Of a DNA stretch of 64,000 bases, positions 15,041 through 46,096 are shown one piece after another. A model generated the notes under the pieces. That model did no database searches. It saw only the letters and a list, made by a program, of their open reading frames with translations, and was not told the origin of the DNA. Numbering within the stretch: the stretch's first letter is position 1; the number at the start of each line of letters is the position of its first letter. Source of the stretch: Oceaniovalibus guishaninsula JLT2003 (GTDB lineage Bacteria; Pseudomonadota; Alphaproteobacteria; Rhodobacterales; Rhodobacteraceae); the NCBI RefSeq assembly GCF_000299575.1, contig NZ_AMGO01000020.1:1-64000 (forward strand). The letters are read 5' to 3'. The translations under genes and the position numbers were made by a program.

Positions 15041-16996
15041 TTGACCGAGGCACCGACCTCCATTCCGGCGCTTCTGGCGCGCAACGTCGCGCGCCACGGC
15101 GCGCGCACCGCCTACCGCGAAAAGGAATTCGGGATCTGGCAAAGCTGGACCTGGGCCGAAGCCGCCGCCGAGATCGCGGCGCTGGCCCTGGGCCTTGTCG
15201 ATATGGGGCTGGCGCCGGGCGAACATGTGGCCATCGCCGGCCGGAACCGGCCGCACCTTTACTGGGCGATGGTCGCCGTGCAGCGCGCGGGCGGGATTCC
15301 CGTGCCGCTCTATCAGGACGCCGCGGCCGAGGAAGTCGCCTATGCGATGGATCATTGCGGCGCCGTCATGGCCATTGTCGGGGATCAGGAACAGGTCGAC
15401 AAGCTGCGCGATGCCCAAGCCAGCCTGACCGCGCTGCGCCAGATCGTCTATCTCGATCCACGCGGCCTGCGGCGTTACGACCATTCGGTGCTGACCGCCT
15501 ATACCGACGTTCAGGCCCGCGGGCGGGACGCGCGCGACCGTCTGGCCGATGAATTGCAACGCCGCACCGATGCGCTCGGCTATGGCGATACCTGCGTGAT
15601 GCTCTATACCAGCGGCACGACAGGGCGTCCGAAGGGCGTGGTGCTGTCGAACCGCAATATCATCGAGACATCGAAGAACAGCGCCGAATTCGACCGGTTG
15701 AGCGTCGATGACGAGGTTCTGGCCTATCTGCCGATGGCCTGGGTCGGCGATTTCATATTCTCGATCGGGCAAGCCTATTGGACGGGGTTCTGCGTTAACT
15801 GCCCCGAATCCCCCGATACGATGATGCAGGATCTGCGTGAGATCGGACCGACCTATTATTTCGCGCCGCCCCGCGTCTTCGAATCGCAACTGACCAACGT
15901 GATGATCCGTATGGAGGATGCGACGCGGATCAAGAAATGGCTGTTCGATACGTATATGGCCGTGGCGCGCCGTGTCGGTCCCGCCATTCTGGACGACAGA
16001 CAGGTGGGTGCCTGGGACCGGATGCAATACCGGCTGGGCGAAGTGCTGGTTTACGGGCCGCTGAAGAACACGCTGGGGTTCAGCCGCGTGCGCGTCGGCT
16101 ATACGGCGGGCGAGGCGATCGGGCCGGAAATTTTCGACTTTTACCGGGGACTTGGCATCAACCTCAAGCAGCTTTACGGCCAGACCGAGGCATCGGTCTT
16201 CATTACCCAACAGCCCGACGATGGCGTGCGGTCCGATTGCGTCGGCGTTCCCAGCCCCGGCGTGGAACTGCGGATCGCCGATAACGGCGAGGTTTTCTAT
16301 CGCTCGCCGGGCGTGTTCGAAAGGTATTACAAGAACGACGAAAGCACCGCCTCGACCAAGGATTCCGAAGGCTGGGTGGCGACGGGGGATGCCGGGTTCA
16401 TCGACAAAGAAAGCGGCCAGTTGCGGATCATCGACCGCGCCAAGGATGTCGCCAAGCTGTCGGACGGGCGGCTGTTCGCGCCGAAATACGTCGAGAACAA
16501 GCTGAAGTTCTTTCCGAATATCCTTGAGGCGGTGGTTTTCGGGGCCGGGCGGGACCGGTGCGTCGCGTTCCTTAACATCGACCTGAACGCGGTGGGCAAC
16601 TGGGCCGAGCGCAACAATATCGCCTATGCCAGCTATCAGGAGTTGTCGCAGCATCCCCGCGTGCTGGAGATGATGCGCGCTCACGTGGCCGAGGTGAACC
16701 GTTCGGTCGCCGAGGACGAGATGCTGTCGGGCTGTCAGGTTCACAGATTTCTGGTTCTGCACAAGCAGTTGGACGCCGATGACGGCGAGCTGACGCGAAC
16801 GCAGAAAGTCCGCCGCGCGGTCATTGCCGACAAGTTCCGCGACCTTGTCGATGCGCTGTATGACGGGAGGGACGAGATCTATACCGAGACCGAAGTGACC
16901 TATGAGGACGGTCGCAAAGGAAAAATCCGCGCGACGCTGAAGATTCAGGATGCCGAAGTGGTTCCCCTCGCGGATCAGAGGATGGCGGCGGAATGA
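15041..16996 (+). CDS. Long-chain acyl-CoA synthetase (AMP-binding)
   Basis: A 651-residue adenylate-forming ligase. The phosphate-binding block YTSGTTGRPKGVVLSN is near residue 190, GQTEAS near 380, and the hinge WVATGDAGFIDKESGQLRIIDRAKD near 440. The length and blocks fit the FadD15/long-chain acyl-CoA synthetase group. It starts with TTG at 15041 behind GGGAGAGA; no ATG fits. In Rhodobacterales this gene commonly heads a branched-chain-amino-acid-type ABC transporter operon. Here livG follows, but an AT-rich small gene separates them. The true substrate is unknown; a carboxylic acid imported by the transporter is plausible. Confidence 0.85.
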   Translation: MTEAPTSIPALLARNVARHGARTAYREKEFGIWQSWTWAEAAAEIAALALGLVDMGLAPGEHVAIAGRNRPHLYWAMVAVQRAGGIPVPLYQDAAAEEVAYAMDHCGAVMAIVGDQEQVDKLRDAQASLTALRQIVYLDPRGLRRYDHSVLTAYTDVQARGRDARDRLADELQRRTDALGYGDTCVMLYTSGTTGRPKGVVLSNRNIIETSKNSAEFDRLSVDDEVLAYLPMAWVGDFIFSIGQAYWTGFCVNCPESPDTMMQDLREIGPTYYFAPPRVFESQLTNVMIRMEDATRIKKWLFDTYMAVARRVGPAILDDRQVGAWDRMQYRLGEVLVYGPLKNTLGFSRVRVGYTAGEAIGPEIFDFYRGLGINLKQLYGQTEASVFITQQPDDGVRSDCVGVPSPGVELRIADNGEVFYRSPGVFERYYKNDESTASTKDSEGWVATGDAGFIDKESGQLRIIDRAKDVAKLSDGRLFAPKYVENKLKFFPNILEAVVFGAGRDRCVAFLNIDLNAVGNWAERNNIAYASYQELSQHPRVLEMMRAHVAEVNRSVAEDEMLSGCQVHRFLVLHKQLDADDGELTRTQKVRRAVIADKFRDLVDALYDGRDEIYTETEVTYEDGRKGKIRATLKIQDAEVVPLADQRMAAE

Positions 16997-17445
16997 GTAA
17001 GAGATTGGATTGGTCCAAAACCCAACAGACTACAAAAATTCATAAGCGTGGGGCAGAGCGGGTTCCCTCGATCAACGATGGAAAACCCAGTAGTTTTAAG
17101 AGGAAAGTGTATAAACGTTCTGAAGATGATAAGTCAGTTAGCTCTCATAAGACTTCTAAGAGCGTAATTAGAAGCCCCATTAAGCGGACTGAACACCGAA
17201 AGTTATTAAGGGCGTATATATACGAGATAAAGAAGGACCTCGCTGCCAGTATATCGGAGTATAAGAGAATTCCTGTTGCCGAGAGACATTCCAAGGGGGC
17301 TGGAGGCGATCTTCGTCGCCGTATTAACCGCCTAAGGCGCATACTGGAGCCTGTCAAATAAGTCGTGATCGGCATAAGGTAGTATCAAACATTAGAAATG
17401 GGCCAATGTGGTGGCCGATGACAAAGCAGAGGTGAGTTACCCTTG
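16990..17445. other. AT-rich tract A
   Basis: By hand count 181 of 410 bases (44%) from 16991 to 17400 are G or C. The tract starts at the ligase stop and ends at or just inside the livG start, whose first codons (AAT GCT ATT CTG CCA GAA) are also AT-leaning. It holds one small gene and about 80 non-coding bases. No inverted ends or direct repeats are evident. Confidence 0.7.
16993..17361 (+). CDS. AT-rich small gene, unknown basic protein
   Basis: A 122-residue protein I do not recognise. The first 70 residues are rich in Lys, Arg, Ser and Thr and look disordered. The rest is probably helical and strongly basic (RTEHRKLLRAYIYEIKKDL, then RRRINRLRRILEPVK). GC content by hand count is about 45%, against mostly well over 60% in this window. 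The ATG overlaps the ligase stop (ATGA), so it would be translationally coupled. A nucleic-acid-binding role is possible from charge alone. It sits exactly between the ligase and livG, with another 80 AT-rich bases after it. It is probably acquired DNA, but no integrase, repeat or target duplication is visible. Confidence 0.6.
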   Translation: MSKRLDWSKTQQTTKIHKRGAERVPSINDGKPSSFKRKVYKRSEDDKSVSSHKTSKSVIRSPIKRTEHRKLLRAYIYEIKKDLAASISEYKRIPVAERHSKGAGGDLRRRINRLRRILEPVK

Positions 17446-37734: not shown

Positions 37735-38073
37735 GAGTTTCACCCATCCTTCATTACAAATTTAGCTTCAATAGAACTTCGAGGCGGGCTAAGTAATCCC
37801 TCATGGTCTTCTTCGATAGTTCGGGGTAACATCCGTCATTATAGAAGTAAATTCTTTCTTCAGTGCCTTCTCTGCGATAGTCCAGTTCCTGTAGGGTCTT
37901 TGGTCCTAATCTCTTGATCTCTATTTTATAGCGTGGGTCGTCCCAGTCGTGATATCCGTCGCAGACTACGCCGACTGGTGAATATTCTCGATTAAATAGG
38001 GTCCAAGTGCCATCCTTATTTCTAGCCATTCCGTAAGGAAATAGCGTACTCCTAAGACTCTTTGGCATATTTA
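37735..38073. other. AT-rich tract B
   Basis: By hand count 145 of 330 bases (44%) from 37741 to 38070 are G or C. The tract lies between the hsp20 terminator and gabD, and the AT lean continues for about 60 bases into the 3' end of gabD (codons for EEYLEMKYVCL). It encodes one small minus-strand gene. No inverted ends or repeats were seen. Confidence 0.7.
37754..38068 (-). CDS. AT-rich small gene after gabD, unknown protein
   Basis: A 104-residue soluble protein I do not recognise with certainty. It starts MPKSLRSTLFPYGM, then RNKDGTWTLFNREYSPVGV, a middle DWDDPRYKIEIKRLGP, RIYFYNDGCYPELSKK and a helical end YLARLEVLLKLNL. The layout, a strand-rich DGTWxLFNRxYxPxG start and a helical C-terminus, recalls small proteins seen on mobile DNA, but this is a memory-based impression. 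It begins 2 bases after the gabD stop, and the GGAGG in the last gabD codons is its ribosome-binding site, so it is coupled to gabD. GC is about 44%. Confidence 0.65.
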   Translation of the reverse strand: MPKSLRSTLFPYGMARNKDGTWTLFNREYSPVGVVCDGYHDWDDPRYKIEIKRLGPKTLQELDYRREGTEERIYFYNDGCYPELSKKTMRDYLARLEVLLKLNL

Positions 38074-42327: not shown

Positions 42328-43260
42328 ATGACCGCCACCCGCCCGCGCAGCTTTCAGGACATCATCCTGTCCTTGCAATCCTATTGGGCACGGCAGGGCT
42401 GCGCGATCCTGCAACCCTACGACATGGAGGTGGGTGCGGGCACCTTCCATCCGGCCACCACGATGCGGGCGCTGGGGCCGCGCGACTGGACGGCGGCCTA
42501 TGTCCAGCCCTCGCGCCGCCCCACGGACGGGCGCTATGGCGACAGTCCGAACCGCTGGCAGCATTACTATCAGTTCCAGGTCATCATCAAACCGTCGCCG
42601 CCCGATCTTCAGGCGCTCTATCTGGGCAGCCTTCAGGCCATCGGCATCGACGCGGCCCTTCACGACATCCGCTTTGTCGAGGACGACTGGGAAAGCCCGA
42701 CGCTGGGCGCGTGGGGGCTGGGCTGGGAAGTGTGGTGCGACGGCATGGAAGTGTCGCAGTTCACCTATTTCCAGCAGGTCGGCGGCCACGATTGCCACCC
42801 CGTCTCGGGCGAGCTGACCTATGGGCTGGAACGGCTGGCGATGTATGTGCTGGGCCATGACGACGGCAACGCGATGCCGTTCAACGCGCCCGACGCCGCG
42901 ATCCCGCTGACCTATGGCGACGTCTTCGGCGAGGCCGAGGCGCAATATGCGCGCTGGAACTTCGACACTGCCGATACCGACATGCTGTTCCAGCACTTCA
43001 AGGACGCCGAGGCGGAATGTGCCCGCATCCTCGACGCGCCGGCGGACGATCCCAAGACCGGCCGCCGCATCGTCATGGCGTTGCCGGCCTACGACCAGTG
43101 CATCAAGGCCAGCCATCTGTTCAACCTGCTGGATGCGCGCGGCGTGATTTCGGTCACGGAACGGCAATCCTATATCGGCCGGGTCCGCGCGCTGGCCAAA
43201 CGCTGCGCCGACGCCTTCGTGCAGACGGAAGCGGGCGGATGGTCGGCCGATGCGGCCTGA
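42328..43260 (+). CDS. glyQ: Glycyl-tRNA synthetase alpha subunit
   Basis: A 310-residue catalytic subunit that activates glycine and pairs with GlyS. The blocks [36 protein letters not shown] (in pieces), [20 protein letters not shown] and [23 protein letters not shown] are family hallmarks. ATG 42328 fits the family start and has a promoter just upstream. It overlaps the next gene by 11 bases. The operon glyQ-membrane protein-glyS is typical of Rhodobacterales. Confidence 0.97.
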
Positions 43261-43798
43261 CCGGCGTGGCGGCATCCTTGGCAAGGTCATCGTGGGGGCC
43301 ATCGTGCTGATCGCCCTCGTCGGCGGGGCGGCGCTGTATTATCTGCAAGTCTATGCCTTTTACGACGAGGTGCCGCTGCAAGACGGCGACATCCGCCTGA
43401 CCGGCATCGTCAGCGGGCAGCCCGAACCGATTCTGGCGCAGAACGTCGCGGCCATCGACGCCGACAGCAGCCCGCTGCGGTTCCGCGCCTGTTTCGACAC
43501 CCCGATGAGCCTGGCCATGCTGACCGAAACCTTTGTCGTCGCCGACGACCCCGTGCCGCTGCTGGCGCCCGGCTGGTTCGGCTGTTTCGACGCCGGCGCC
43601 ATCGGGGCCGATCTGGATTCGGGGCGCGCGGTGGCGTTCTTGTCGGAAAAGAACGTGCATTACGGCGTGGACCGCATTGTCGCCGTCACCGAGGACGGGC
43701 GCGGCTATGTCTGGCACCAGCTTAACGATTGCGGCGCGCTGGCCTATGACGGCACGCCCGTGGGCGAGGCCTGTCCGCCCCGGCCCGAGGAGGATTGA
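43250..43798 (+). CDS. DUF6446-like single-pass membrane protein
   Basis: A 182-residue protein with one N-terminal membrane segment ([20 protein letters not shown]) and a periplasmic domain containing [22 protein letters not shown] and [17 protein letters not shown]. Homologues sit between glyQ and glyS in Rhodobacterales and are called DUF6446 as far as I recall; the role is unknown. It overlaps glyQ and is followed directly by the glyS ATG. Three Cys residues are in the periplasmic part. Confidence 0.75.
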
Positions 43799-46096
43799 AT
43801 GCCCGACCTGCTGATCGAATTGCTGTCCGAGGAAATCCCGGCGCGGATGCAGGCCCGCGCGGCCGACGACCTGCGCCGTCTGGTGACGGACGGTCTGGTC
43901 GAGGCCGGGCTGACCTATGCCCATGCCGGCGCCTTCGTGACGCCCCGCCGCCTGACGCTGCATGTCGAAGGGCTGACCGACCGGTCGCCCGACAGCCGCG
44001 AGGATCGCAAGGGCCCCCGCGTCAGCGCGCCCGACAAGGCGGTCGAGGGGTTCGCCCGCGGCGCCGGCGTGGCGCGCGACGCGCTGGTGGCGCGCGATAC
44101 CGGCAAGGGCGAGGTCTGGTTCGCCGTCATCGACCGCAAGGGCCGCCCCGCATCCGACATCGTGGCCGAGGTGCTGGAACGCACGATCCGCGATTTTCCG
44201 TGGCCCAAGTCGATGCGCTGGGGGCGCGGCACCCTGCGTTGGGTCCGACCGCTGCATCGCATCCTGTGCCTGCTGACGCGCGAGGACGGCGCGCAGATCG
44301 TGCCGCTGGACGTGGACGGCATCGTCGCGGGCGACGTGACCGAAGGCCACCGCTTCATGGCGCCCGAGCCTTTCCGCGTCACGGGGTTCGAGGATTACGC
44401 CGCCCGCCTGCGCCGCGCCTTCGTCGTGCTGGACGCGGACGAGCGGGCCGAGACGATCCGCAACGCGGCCCAGAACGCCGCCTTCGCGCTGGGGCTGGAA
44501 GTGGTCGAGGACAACGCCCTGCTGGCCGAGGTGGCGGGGCTGGTCGAATGGCCCGTCGTGCTGACCGGTGCGATCGAGGAGCGTTTCCTGACCCTGCCGC
44601 CCGAAGTGCTGCAAACCTCGATGCGCGAGCATCAGAAGTTCTTCTCCCTGCGCGACCGCGAGGGGCGGATCGTGCGTTTCGTCACCGTCGCCAACCGCGA
44701 AACGGCCGATGACGGCGCGACGATCCTGGCGGGCAACCAGCGCGTGCTGTCCGCGCGCCTGTCGGATGCCGCGTTCTTCTGGGCCAACGACCTGCGTGTG
44801 GCCAGGGCGGGCATGGGTCCGTGGCTGGACAAGCTGCGCGACGTGACGTTCCACGCGAAACTGGGCAGTCAGGCCGAGCGCATCGACCGCATCGCCGCCC
44901 TCGCGCGCGAGATCGCGGGGGATGTCGGCGCCGACCCAGATCTCGCCGAACAGGCCGCGCGTTTCGCCAAGGCCGATCTGGCGTCCGAGATGGTCTATGA
45001 GTTCCCCGAATTGCAGGGGGTCATGGGCCGCTATTATGCGGCCGAGGCGGGATTGCCGCCCGAGGTCGCGCAGGCCGCGCAGGATCACTATGCCCCCCTC
45101 GGCCCCTCCGACGCCGTGCCGACCGCCCCGGTCTCCGTCGCCGTCGCGCTGGCCGACAAGATCGACACGCTGACAGGGTTCTGGGCGATCGACGAAAAGC
45201 CAACGGGCAGCAAGGATCCCTATGCGTTAAGGCGGGCGGCGCTGGGGGTTATACGGCTCATCATAGAGTTGGACATCAGAATAGATATGTCCGAGGTCTT
45301 TTATCGTTCACGGATGCTTAGTGATCGTACGATCTTGAGTCTTACGGAACAGGATAAACTGACGGAACTCGAACAAGTTATGAGTTTTTTAAATATTCAA
45401 ACGCGCGCAGACTTAGAAAAGATTCAAAATAGGCTTTCGCGGGAGCAAGCAAAGCAAATACGATCACCAGAATGGGAGAATCTGACGTTTGAAGAGGCGC
45501 AGGAAAAGCTTGAAGACCTGCTGCGGGTCGGAAGGATCGAAAACGCGGCCGCAGACGCCATTGCCGCAAAGACCAGCACTCTCGCCTTCCTCCACGACCG
45601 CCTCAAGGTCCATCTGCGCGAGCAGGGCATCCGGCACGATGTGATCGACGCCTGCCTTGCCATGCCCGGCAACGACGACCTGACCCTGCTGGTCAGGCGG
45701 GCCGAGGCGTTGGAGGCGTTCTTGCGGACCGAGGATGGCGCCAATCTGGTGCAGGGGTTCAGGCGCGCCAACAACATCTTGACCCAGGCCGAGGAAGCCG
45801 ATGGCGTCGAATATTCCTATGGCGCCGACGTGAAATACGCCGAGACGGACGAGGAACGCGCGCTGTTCGCCGCCCTCGATGCCGCGCAGCCGAAGATCGA
45901 CGCCGCCATGAAGGCCGAGGATTTCGGTGCGGCGATGACGGCGCTGGCCGGTCTGCGCGCCCCCATTGACGCCTTTTTCGACGGGGTGCAGGTCAATACC
46001 GACAGCCAGATCCTGCGGCGCAACCGTCTGAACCTGCTCAGCCGGATCCGCCGCCTCTGCCTTGACGTGGCGGACCTGACGCGGTTGCAGGGCTGA
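43799..46096 (+). CDS. glyS: Glycyl-tRNA synthetase beta subunit with AT-rich internal tract
   Basis: A 765-residue GlyS that binds tRNA-Gly. The start MPDLLIELLSEEIPARMQ, the block MREHQKFFSLRDREG and the C-terminal anticodon-binding region (RRNRLNLLSRIRRLCLDVADL) are conserved. E. coli GlyS is 689 residues; the surplus lies between DPYALRRAALGV (residues 473-484) and LAFLHDRLKV (from 595), a gap of about 110 residues against roughly 38 in E. coli. This stretch is Glu/Lys/Gln-rich, probably helical, and encoded by DNA of about 43% GC. Reading frame is kept throughout, so the protein is probably functional with an added domain. Confidence 0.93.
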   Translation: MPDLLIELLSEEIPARMQARAADDLRRLVTDGLVEAGLTYAHAGAFVTPRRLTLHVEGLTDRSPDSREDRKGPRVSAPDKAVEGFARGAGVARDALVARDTGKGEVWFAVIDRKGRPASDIVAEVLERTIRDFPWPKSMRWGRGTLRWVRPLHRILCLLTREDGAQIVPLDVDGIVAGDVTEGHRFMAPEPFRVTGFEDYAARLRRAFVVLDADERAETIRNAAQNAAFALGLEVVEDNALLAEVAGLVEWPVVLTGAIEERFLTLPPEVLQTSMREHQKFFSLRDREGRIVRFVTVANRETADDGATILAGNQRVLSARLSDAAFFWANDLRVARAGMGPWLDKLRDVTFHAKLGSQAERIDRIAALAREIAGDVGADPDLAEQAARFAKADLASEMVYEFPELQGVMGRYYAAEAGLPPEVAQAAQDHYAPLGPSDAVPTAPVSVAVALADKIDTLTGFWAIDEKPTGSKDPYALRRAALGVIRLIIELDIRIDMSEVFYRSRMLSDRTILSLTEQDKLTELEQVMSFLNIQTRADLEKIQNRLSREQAKQIRSPEWENLTFEEAQEKLEDLLRVGRIENAAADAIAAKTSTLAFLHDRLKVHLREQGIRHDVIDACLAMPGNDDLTLLVRRAEALEAFLRTEDGANLVQGFRRANNILTQAEEADGVEYSYGADVKYAETDEERALFAALDAAQPKIDAAMKAEDFGAAMTALAGLRAPIDAFFDGVQVNTDSQILRRNRLNLLSRIRRLCLDVADLTRLQG
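45223..45545. other. AT-rich tract C, inside glyS
   Basis: Hand count gives 102 G or C in 240 bases (about 43%) from 45241 to 45480. The shift begins inside conserved codons (TTA AGG for Leu-Arg in ALRR, later ATA, TTG, AGA) and fades by about 45545. It covers codons about 475-582. The frame is open and no repeat or inverted end is visible. Confidence 0.75.

Follow-up and report, generated by a model that had tools for sequence, protein, structure and literature searches.

An AT-rich segment within glyS

The glyS gene of Oceaniovalibus guishaninsula JLT2003, which encodes the glycyl-tRNA synthetase beta subunit, occupies positions 43799–46096 (+) of the stretch of DNA analysed here (positions 1–64,000 of contig NZ_AMGO01000020.1, assembly GCF_000299575.1, termed the window). 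The gene is a single open frame of 765 codons, and a DUF6446 gene lies just upstream (43250–43798, +). The protein matches the GlyS family on both sides of the feature described below (TIGR00211, E 8.4e-226, in two stretches of which the best covers residues 3–539; PF02092, residues 4–620, E 1.3e-181; DALR_1, residues 655–752).

An AT-rich tract of about 100 codons had been proposed within glyS from inspection of the sequence alone, and this observation is confirmed. The GC content of 45223–45545 is 46.4%, where a hand count had given about 43%, compared with 68.9% for the window and 69.4% for glyS without 45223–45585. The tract is one of the three lowest separate 300-bp stretches in the 64 kb (0.42, 0.43 and 0.45, where the mean of all 300-bp windows is 0.689 with a standard deviation of 0.051). 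The other two are small separate orphan genes rather than tracts inside a gene. The first, at 16993–17361 (+), encodes 122 aa and contains the lowest of the three stretches (0.42); its ATG overlaps the stop codon of the upstream gene, which by eye resembles an acyl-CoA synthetase, and it matched no Pfam family and no plasmid record. The second, at 37754–38068 (−), encodes 104 aa and lies next to a gene that by eye resembles an aldehyde dehydrogenase. It was found in 1 of 60 genomes searched (its own), with distant relatives (34% and 36.5% identity) on a Chryseobacterium and a Microscilla plasmid.

The segment that varies among relatives, which we term the variable core, spans 45281–45586 (102 codons, GC 0.47), and its third-position GC is 0.49 compared with 0.88 in the flanks. 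The left flank (45215–45280), DPYALRRAALGVIRLIIELDIR, is the helix that corresponds to H19 of E. coli GlyS. As the original prediction stated, the compositional shift begins inside conserved codons rather than at a clean edge (TTA AGG at 45227–45232, and GTT ATA before Arg486), and it is over by codons 591–600. The right junction and the start of the conserved downstream helix (LAFLHDRLK) lie at 45581–45607 and overlap the stretch whose codons are conserved in long-allele carriers (below). E. coli GlyS (7YSE) aligns up to its residue 505 (window 502) and again from residue 525 (window 595), which leaves 19 residues in E. coli against 92 in the window. Measured between the anchor motifs used in the original prediction, which gave roughly 38 residues for E. 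coli and about 110 here, the lengths are 37 and 110.

Location of the segment in GlyS

In the structure of E. coli GlyRS with tRNA, helix H19 and the loop before it, with Asp476 and Arg482, and also Arg531, contact the tRNA acceptor stem or the discriminator base (PMC9908026). By alignment these residues correspond to window D473, R479 and R601, all of which are invariant in 41 aligned GlyS sequences, as are P474, L477 and R478. The insert therefore lies in the HD domain between two conserved elements that bind the acceptor stem in E. coli, and the flanks appear to keep their known role on both sides of the exchanged segment. The frame is intact and the flanks are conserved.

AlphaFold2 models of the window protein predict the insert to be mostly helical, but with low to middling confidence (block-mean pLDDT of about 47–78). 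The insert found in many relatives (class A, below) is predicted to form three helices, in a 197-residue model with a mean pLDDT of 89.7. The possibility of a separate helical hairpin is thus supported only weakly for the window and better for this class. Among solved structures, the best matches to both models are GlyRS chains. Below these, the full-length model has weak matches to CCA-adding enzymes and HD hydrolases (E 0.02 or worse), and the model of the class A insert has nothing convincing.

Comparison of the site among relatives

To determine whether this position holds inserts of varying length and composition, as had been suggested as a test, we collected GlyS sequences from relatives by whole-genome searches, to which we added the best 80 of 582 loci and further fetched regions. 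In 14 genomes of the genus, the stretch between the LRR and F..DRL anchors is 28, 31, 33, 33, 33, 52, 52, 52, 52, 52, 85, 104, 113 and 117 residues long. Close relatives do not carry the same sequence at normal GC, as the insert of the window was found in 1 of 394 family genomes, its own.

Three kinds of allele occur at this site in Rhodobacteraceae. The first is a conserved 'resident' insert (class A), with the motifs LDRFIDxQLLRH and EIADHGVFGAA, which remains alignable across the family (41% mean column identity over 40 sequences) and has a GC content near that of its flanks (mean difference −0.026 in 40). The second is a short linker. The third comprises long non-resident inserts, which are AT-rich (mean difference −0.130 in 72) and mostly unrelated to each other. 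Insert GC follows flank GC at r = 0.80 for 40 resident alleles, but at only 0.37 for 72 long non-resident alleles. When 299 genomes drawn across the phylum were searched for the resident class, 4 matched, all from the family of the window. Two of these are GlyS loci already identified in the whole-genome searches, and the other two matches lie in open frames of 744 and 843 aa. Longer segments with GC below that of their flanks also occur at this site in three class-level relatives outside the family (72, 93 and 89 residues in loci L155, L158 and L168, where L numbers denote individual GlyS loci), and therefore the variability may be wider in Alphaproteobacteria.

In assembling the set, loci L111–L121 were omitted because they are second halves of loci already included, 27 loci could not be parsed and 11 were duplicates. 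With some of the 27 restored from an earlier parse, 217 loci remained. For the tree and the pairwise comparisons, 16 loci of more distant relatives were left out, two of which (L154 and L157) bear the same family label as the window. The resulting 201 GlyS comprise 62 resident, 82 strict long, 48 short and 9 other alleles. We define strict long alleles as those that are non-resident by motif, have at least 75 residues between the anchors, and have a GC content at least 0.06 below that of the flanks, although a few, such as L040, are divergent resident alleles. As most loci were chosen from the best-scoring matches, these proportions are not population frequencies; a sample less selected by score (L001–L030, L151 and L152) gave 18 short, 6 long, 5 resident, 1 other and 2 unplaced.

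Inserts differ between sister species with conserved flanks

We next compared the relatedness of variable cores (blastp E below 1e-3) with the identity of the flanking DNA, counting only pairs whose flanks align over more than 650 nt. Related inserts occur in 1788 of 1880 resident pairs, but in only 8 of 3206 long–long pairs, 15 of 1050 short–short pairs and 0 of 3740 long–short pairs. The classes are not perfectly separate, as 57 of 4961 resident–long pairs score as related because some long alleles such as L040 are divergent resident ones. When restricted to pairs with flanks at least 80% identical in DNA, 38 of 39 resident pairs are related, compared with 0 of 70 long–long pairs.

The same pattern is seen for 71 sister pairs on a tree built from the flanks, with 15 codons before and 12 after the insert left out. 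Related inserts are present in 13 of 13 resident pairs, 0 of 19 long–long, 0 of 9 resident–long, 0 of 8 long–short, 0 of 7 resident–short, 2 of 9 short–short, and 1 of 6 pairs that involve the nine other long alleles. Three pairs of loci, L054/L063 from Leisingera (flank DNA 92.2% identical), L106/L142 (91.2%) and L064/L071 from Tritonibacter (90.5%), have cores without a blastp hit at E 0.01. Ungapped flank identities calculated per pair were unreliable for L127/L134, L068/L215, L030/L052 and L017/L152, and were not used here.

A neutral sequence at this divergence would still be alignable, and therefore replacement of whole segments is the best reading of these data. Ordinary point-mutation drift of one ancestral insert with relaxed codon choice is very unlikely as the main process, given also that codon-position structure is intact in 82 of 82 strict long inserts and that the resident allele stays alignable at far greater distances. 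In favour of drift, a few non-resident alleles can be aligned distantly across genera (for example, L003, L074 and L176 are 20–30% identical to L128).

The resident/non-resident label changes at least 40 times on the tree of 201 sequences, compared with 44–61 times in 200 shuffles. Thus the label is very scattered, though somewhat more clustered than expected by chance. The identity of resident inserts is tied only weakly to that of their flanks (Spearman 0.24, 1880 pairs), with cases of 82% identical inserts over 75% identical flanks, which fits exchange between lineages. However, codon identity in the left flank is hardly raised in long-allele carriers (0.52 against 0.45 in the five codons next to the insert, and equal or lower in the 15 codons before those), and therefore long tracts of co-transferred flank are not shown.

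Nature and origin of the inserts

The 82 strict long inserts have GC contents of 0.60, 0.37 and 0.50 at the first, second and third codon positions, with the first above the second in 82 of 82. This is the pattern of established coding DNA rather than of captured non-coding DNA. In the allele-family pairs that we tested, pN is below pS throughout, although pS is near saturation in most. Clustering at E below 1e-3 gives one large cluster of 69 (resident alleles and allies), eleven small clusters and 103 singletons. Of the 82 strict long inserts, 12 have a relative among the others, at low identity, and 70 have none that is detectable.

In 41 long-allele loci, a low-GC dip lies at the insert in 40 and elsewhere inside glyS in 3, whereas the corresponding numbers for 27 resident loci are 7 and 2. 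Such dips also occur in the neighbouring genes or the gaps between them in 25 of the 41 long-allele loci and 16 of the 27 resident loci, and therefore dips as such are not special to glyS.

No donor of these segments was found. The insert of the window has no match in 50 697 phage records, 72 556 plasmid records or solved structures. Likewise, the insert of L030 has no match in the phage or plasmid collections, that of L136 has none in phages, and the resident insert of L058 has none in plasmids. Neither a relative of GlyS nor an exact copy of the junction motif was found in viral contigs. Scans of 78 inserts against Pfam, PHROGs, NCBIfam and PADLOC gave only scattered one-member hits no better than E 0.0016, which is about chance level for that many scans. 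The window insert matched no Pfam family, and none of the 25 weak Pfam families inspected, out of 40 hit by the 78 inserts, was named as an intein. Searches of 198 family genomes for free-standing homologues of two allele families returned nothing for one, a weak negative because no source genome of that family is known to be in the sample, and only the GlyS of a source genome for the other.

We also considered whether the acidity of the inserts is a special feature. This was rejected, as 80 of 84 inserts carry net negative charge but so do 418 of 420 control segments from upstream in GlyS.

Conserved codons at the 3′ junction

In long-allele carriers the nine codons across the 3′ junction (DLLS, then FFHDR; the place of 45575–45601 in the window) are unusually conserved at synonymous sites. 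Among pairs with flank identity below 78%, which are mostly from different genera, the identical codon is used in 0.70 of cases for the last four insert codons and 0.86 for the next five. The corresponding values are 0.41 and 0.62 in the resident class and 0.42 and 0.71 in short alleles, and the effect is gone by codons +6 to +10 (up to 1500 sampled pairs per class). The preferred codons all end in C. In contrast, the left edge is poor in C, but its codons are hardly more conserved.

This conservation, which remains unexplained, may mark a DNA site used in the exchange, and could be consistent with a dedicated diversity generator or mobile element such as a retroelement, an invertible cassette, a repeated palindromic element or a site-specific recombinase acting at the junction. 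We regard such a generator or element as unlikely on present evidence. No reverse transcriptase match (PF00078) was found in the genome of the window, whereas 3 of 14 control genomes gave one, which argues against a diversity-generating retroelement. Invertible DNA was rejected because the reverse frames of the inserts are not kept open (2, 3 and 2 of 84, compared with codon-shuffle expectations of 2.0, 7.9 and 0.7). A silent cassette array was rejected because the junction is present in a single copy in the genome, allowing up to 3 mismatches. The left motif was found in 17 of 198 family genomes, one copy each. As protein, the window insert matches only itself in its genome, unlike the repeated copies expected for in-frame palindromic elements of the Rickettsia type.

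Pairing in the mRNA between the G-rich left edge and the C-rich right edge does not account for the conservation either. The duplex energies of long alleles (−38.5 on average) are no lower than those of the resident class (−40.2). In minimum-energy folds of 40 loci per class, long alleles have more left–right pairs than the resident class (6.7 against 2.2), but a single synonymous shuffle of each gives nearly as many (5.3 and 2.5), and we therefore attribute the difference to composition.

A proposed hypervariable replacement site in GlyS

We propose, with fair confidence, that the AT-rich tract is one allele of a hypervariable replacement site in the HD domain of GlyS, which in Rhodobacteraceae holds the resident insert, a short linker, or one of a very large pool of unrelated, mostly AT-rich coding segments of about 60–150 codons. 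The comparative data establish directly that the position is fixed between conserved flanks, that the long alleles differ completely between sister species whose flanks are up to 92% identical in DNA while the resident type stays recognizable across the family, and that the inserts have coding structure; in the searches made, homologues were found in GlyS only. We infer, as the likely course of events, that new alleles arrive as whole segments of foreign or formerly mobile coding DNA and are swapped by recombination in the conserved flanks. Gene transfer agents, which are particularly well conserved in this order (PMC9836097) and which in Rhodobacter capsulatus deliver fragments of about 4.5 kb that integrate by allelic replacement (PMC9690577), are a plausible vehicle.

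The original prediction offered two readings, an in-frame insertion with exchange through flanking homology or a fast-evolving loop with relaxed codon choice, and its interpretation is supported in part. Our data favour the first reading, although that exchange runs through flanking homology is plausible rather than shown directly. A strain-specific insert had been named as support for acquisition, and such specificity is shown here between species, not within one.

The reason for the rapid turnover is a matter of inference, and of less certain inference than the replacement itself. Our preferred but tentative explanation is that some phage or protein antagonist recognizes this exposed part of an essential enzyme, so that a new surface that leaves aminoacylation intact would be favoured. 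In this view the insert would not be a catalytic part but a replaceable surface. A SNP in glyS of phage-resistant E. coli and an indel upstream of glyS in phage-coevolved Vibrio (PMC8711792; PMC8521149) are at most a hint of such a role.

The main rival, which we consider similarly possible, shares the replacement step but requires no antagonist. The site might be a permissive loop that tolerates any in-frame, soluble segment, with chance insertions and deletions of DNA replacing it often and AT-richness reflecting foreign or unselected codons. Consistent with this possibility, lengths from 28 to 167 residues occur between the anchors, short alleles are common and also mostly unrelated to one another, the site lies between two helices, and the net negative charge of the inserts is no greater than that of the rest of GlyS. 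However, the resident class is conserved over the family with pN well below pS, and therefore the site is not simply free. Furthermore, the middle half of 94 long cores is 75–96 residues long rather than decaying to nothing, and turnover within flank DNA divergence of 8–10% is very fast for an essential gene.

A bolder and more doubtful possibility is that GlyS of Rhodobacteraceae carries a site resembling those of antigenic variation, where an essential translation enzyme is under attack by phage or by rival bacteria at one surface of its HD domain and lineages escape by swapping in unrelated coding segments from a very large pool, guided by a conserved DNA junction. If true, GlyS would be a hidden arena of phage–host or bacterium–bacterium conflict. 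More generally, essential cytosolic housekeeping enzymes are expected to diverge slowly. A site where sister species carry completely unrelated segments of 60–150 residues while the enzyme stays intact implies either very strong selection for novelty or an unusually efficient segment-swapping process. It also provides many natural examples of a protein that accepts unrelated segments at one point.

Comparison with known systems

Our literature searches, which were confined to titles and abstracts with subscription papers mostly absent, revealed no report of a hypervariable segment in GlyS or of segment swapping in a synthetase of this group. Several known systems nevertheless share some characteristics with this site. 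Diversity-generating retroelements also have a variable region next to a conserved 3′ DNA motif, but the alleles described here are unrelated rather than mutated copies of one template, and no reverse transcriptase match is present in the genome of the window. The replacement of variable domains in conflict proteins, such as HsdS target-recognition domains, polymorphic toxin tips and phage tail tips, likewise involves a conserved frame with an exchangeable and highly diverse segment, many alleles and wide scatter on the tree. Those are surface or conflict genes, whereas GlyS is an essential cytosolic translation enzyme for which no partner, target or donor is known. Finally, lineage-specific insertions in aminoacyl-tRNA synthetases (compare E. 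coli GlyS, 7YSE, and rice plastid GlyRS, 7XOF) also add an in-frame segment between conserved helices of the HD domain while the family fold is kept. Such insertions are usually inherited and conserved within a lineage, but in the present case sister species carry unrelated segments at one fixed point.
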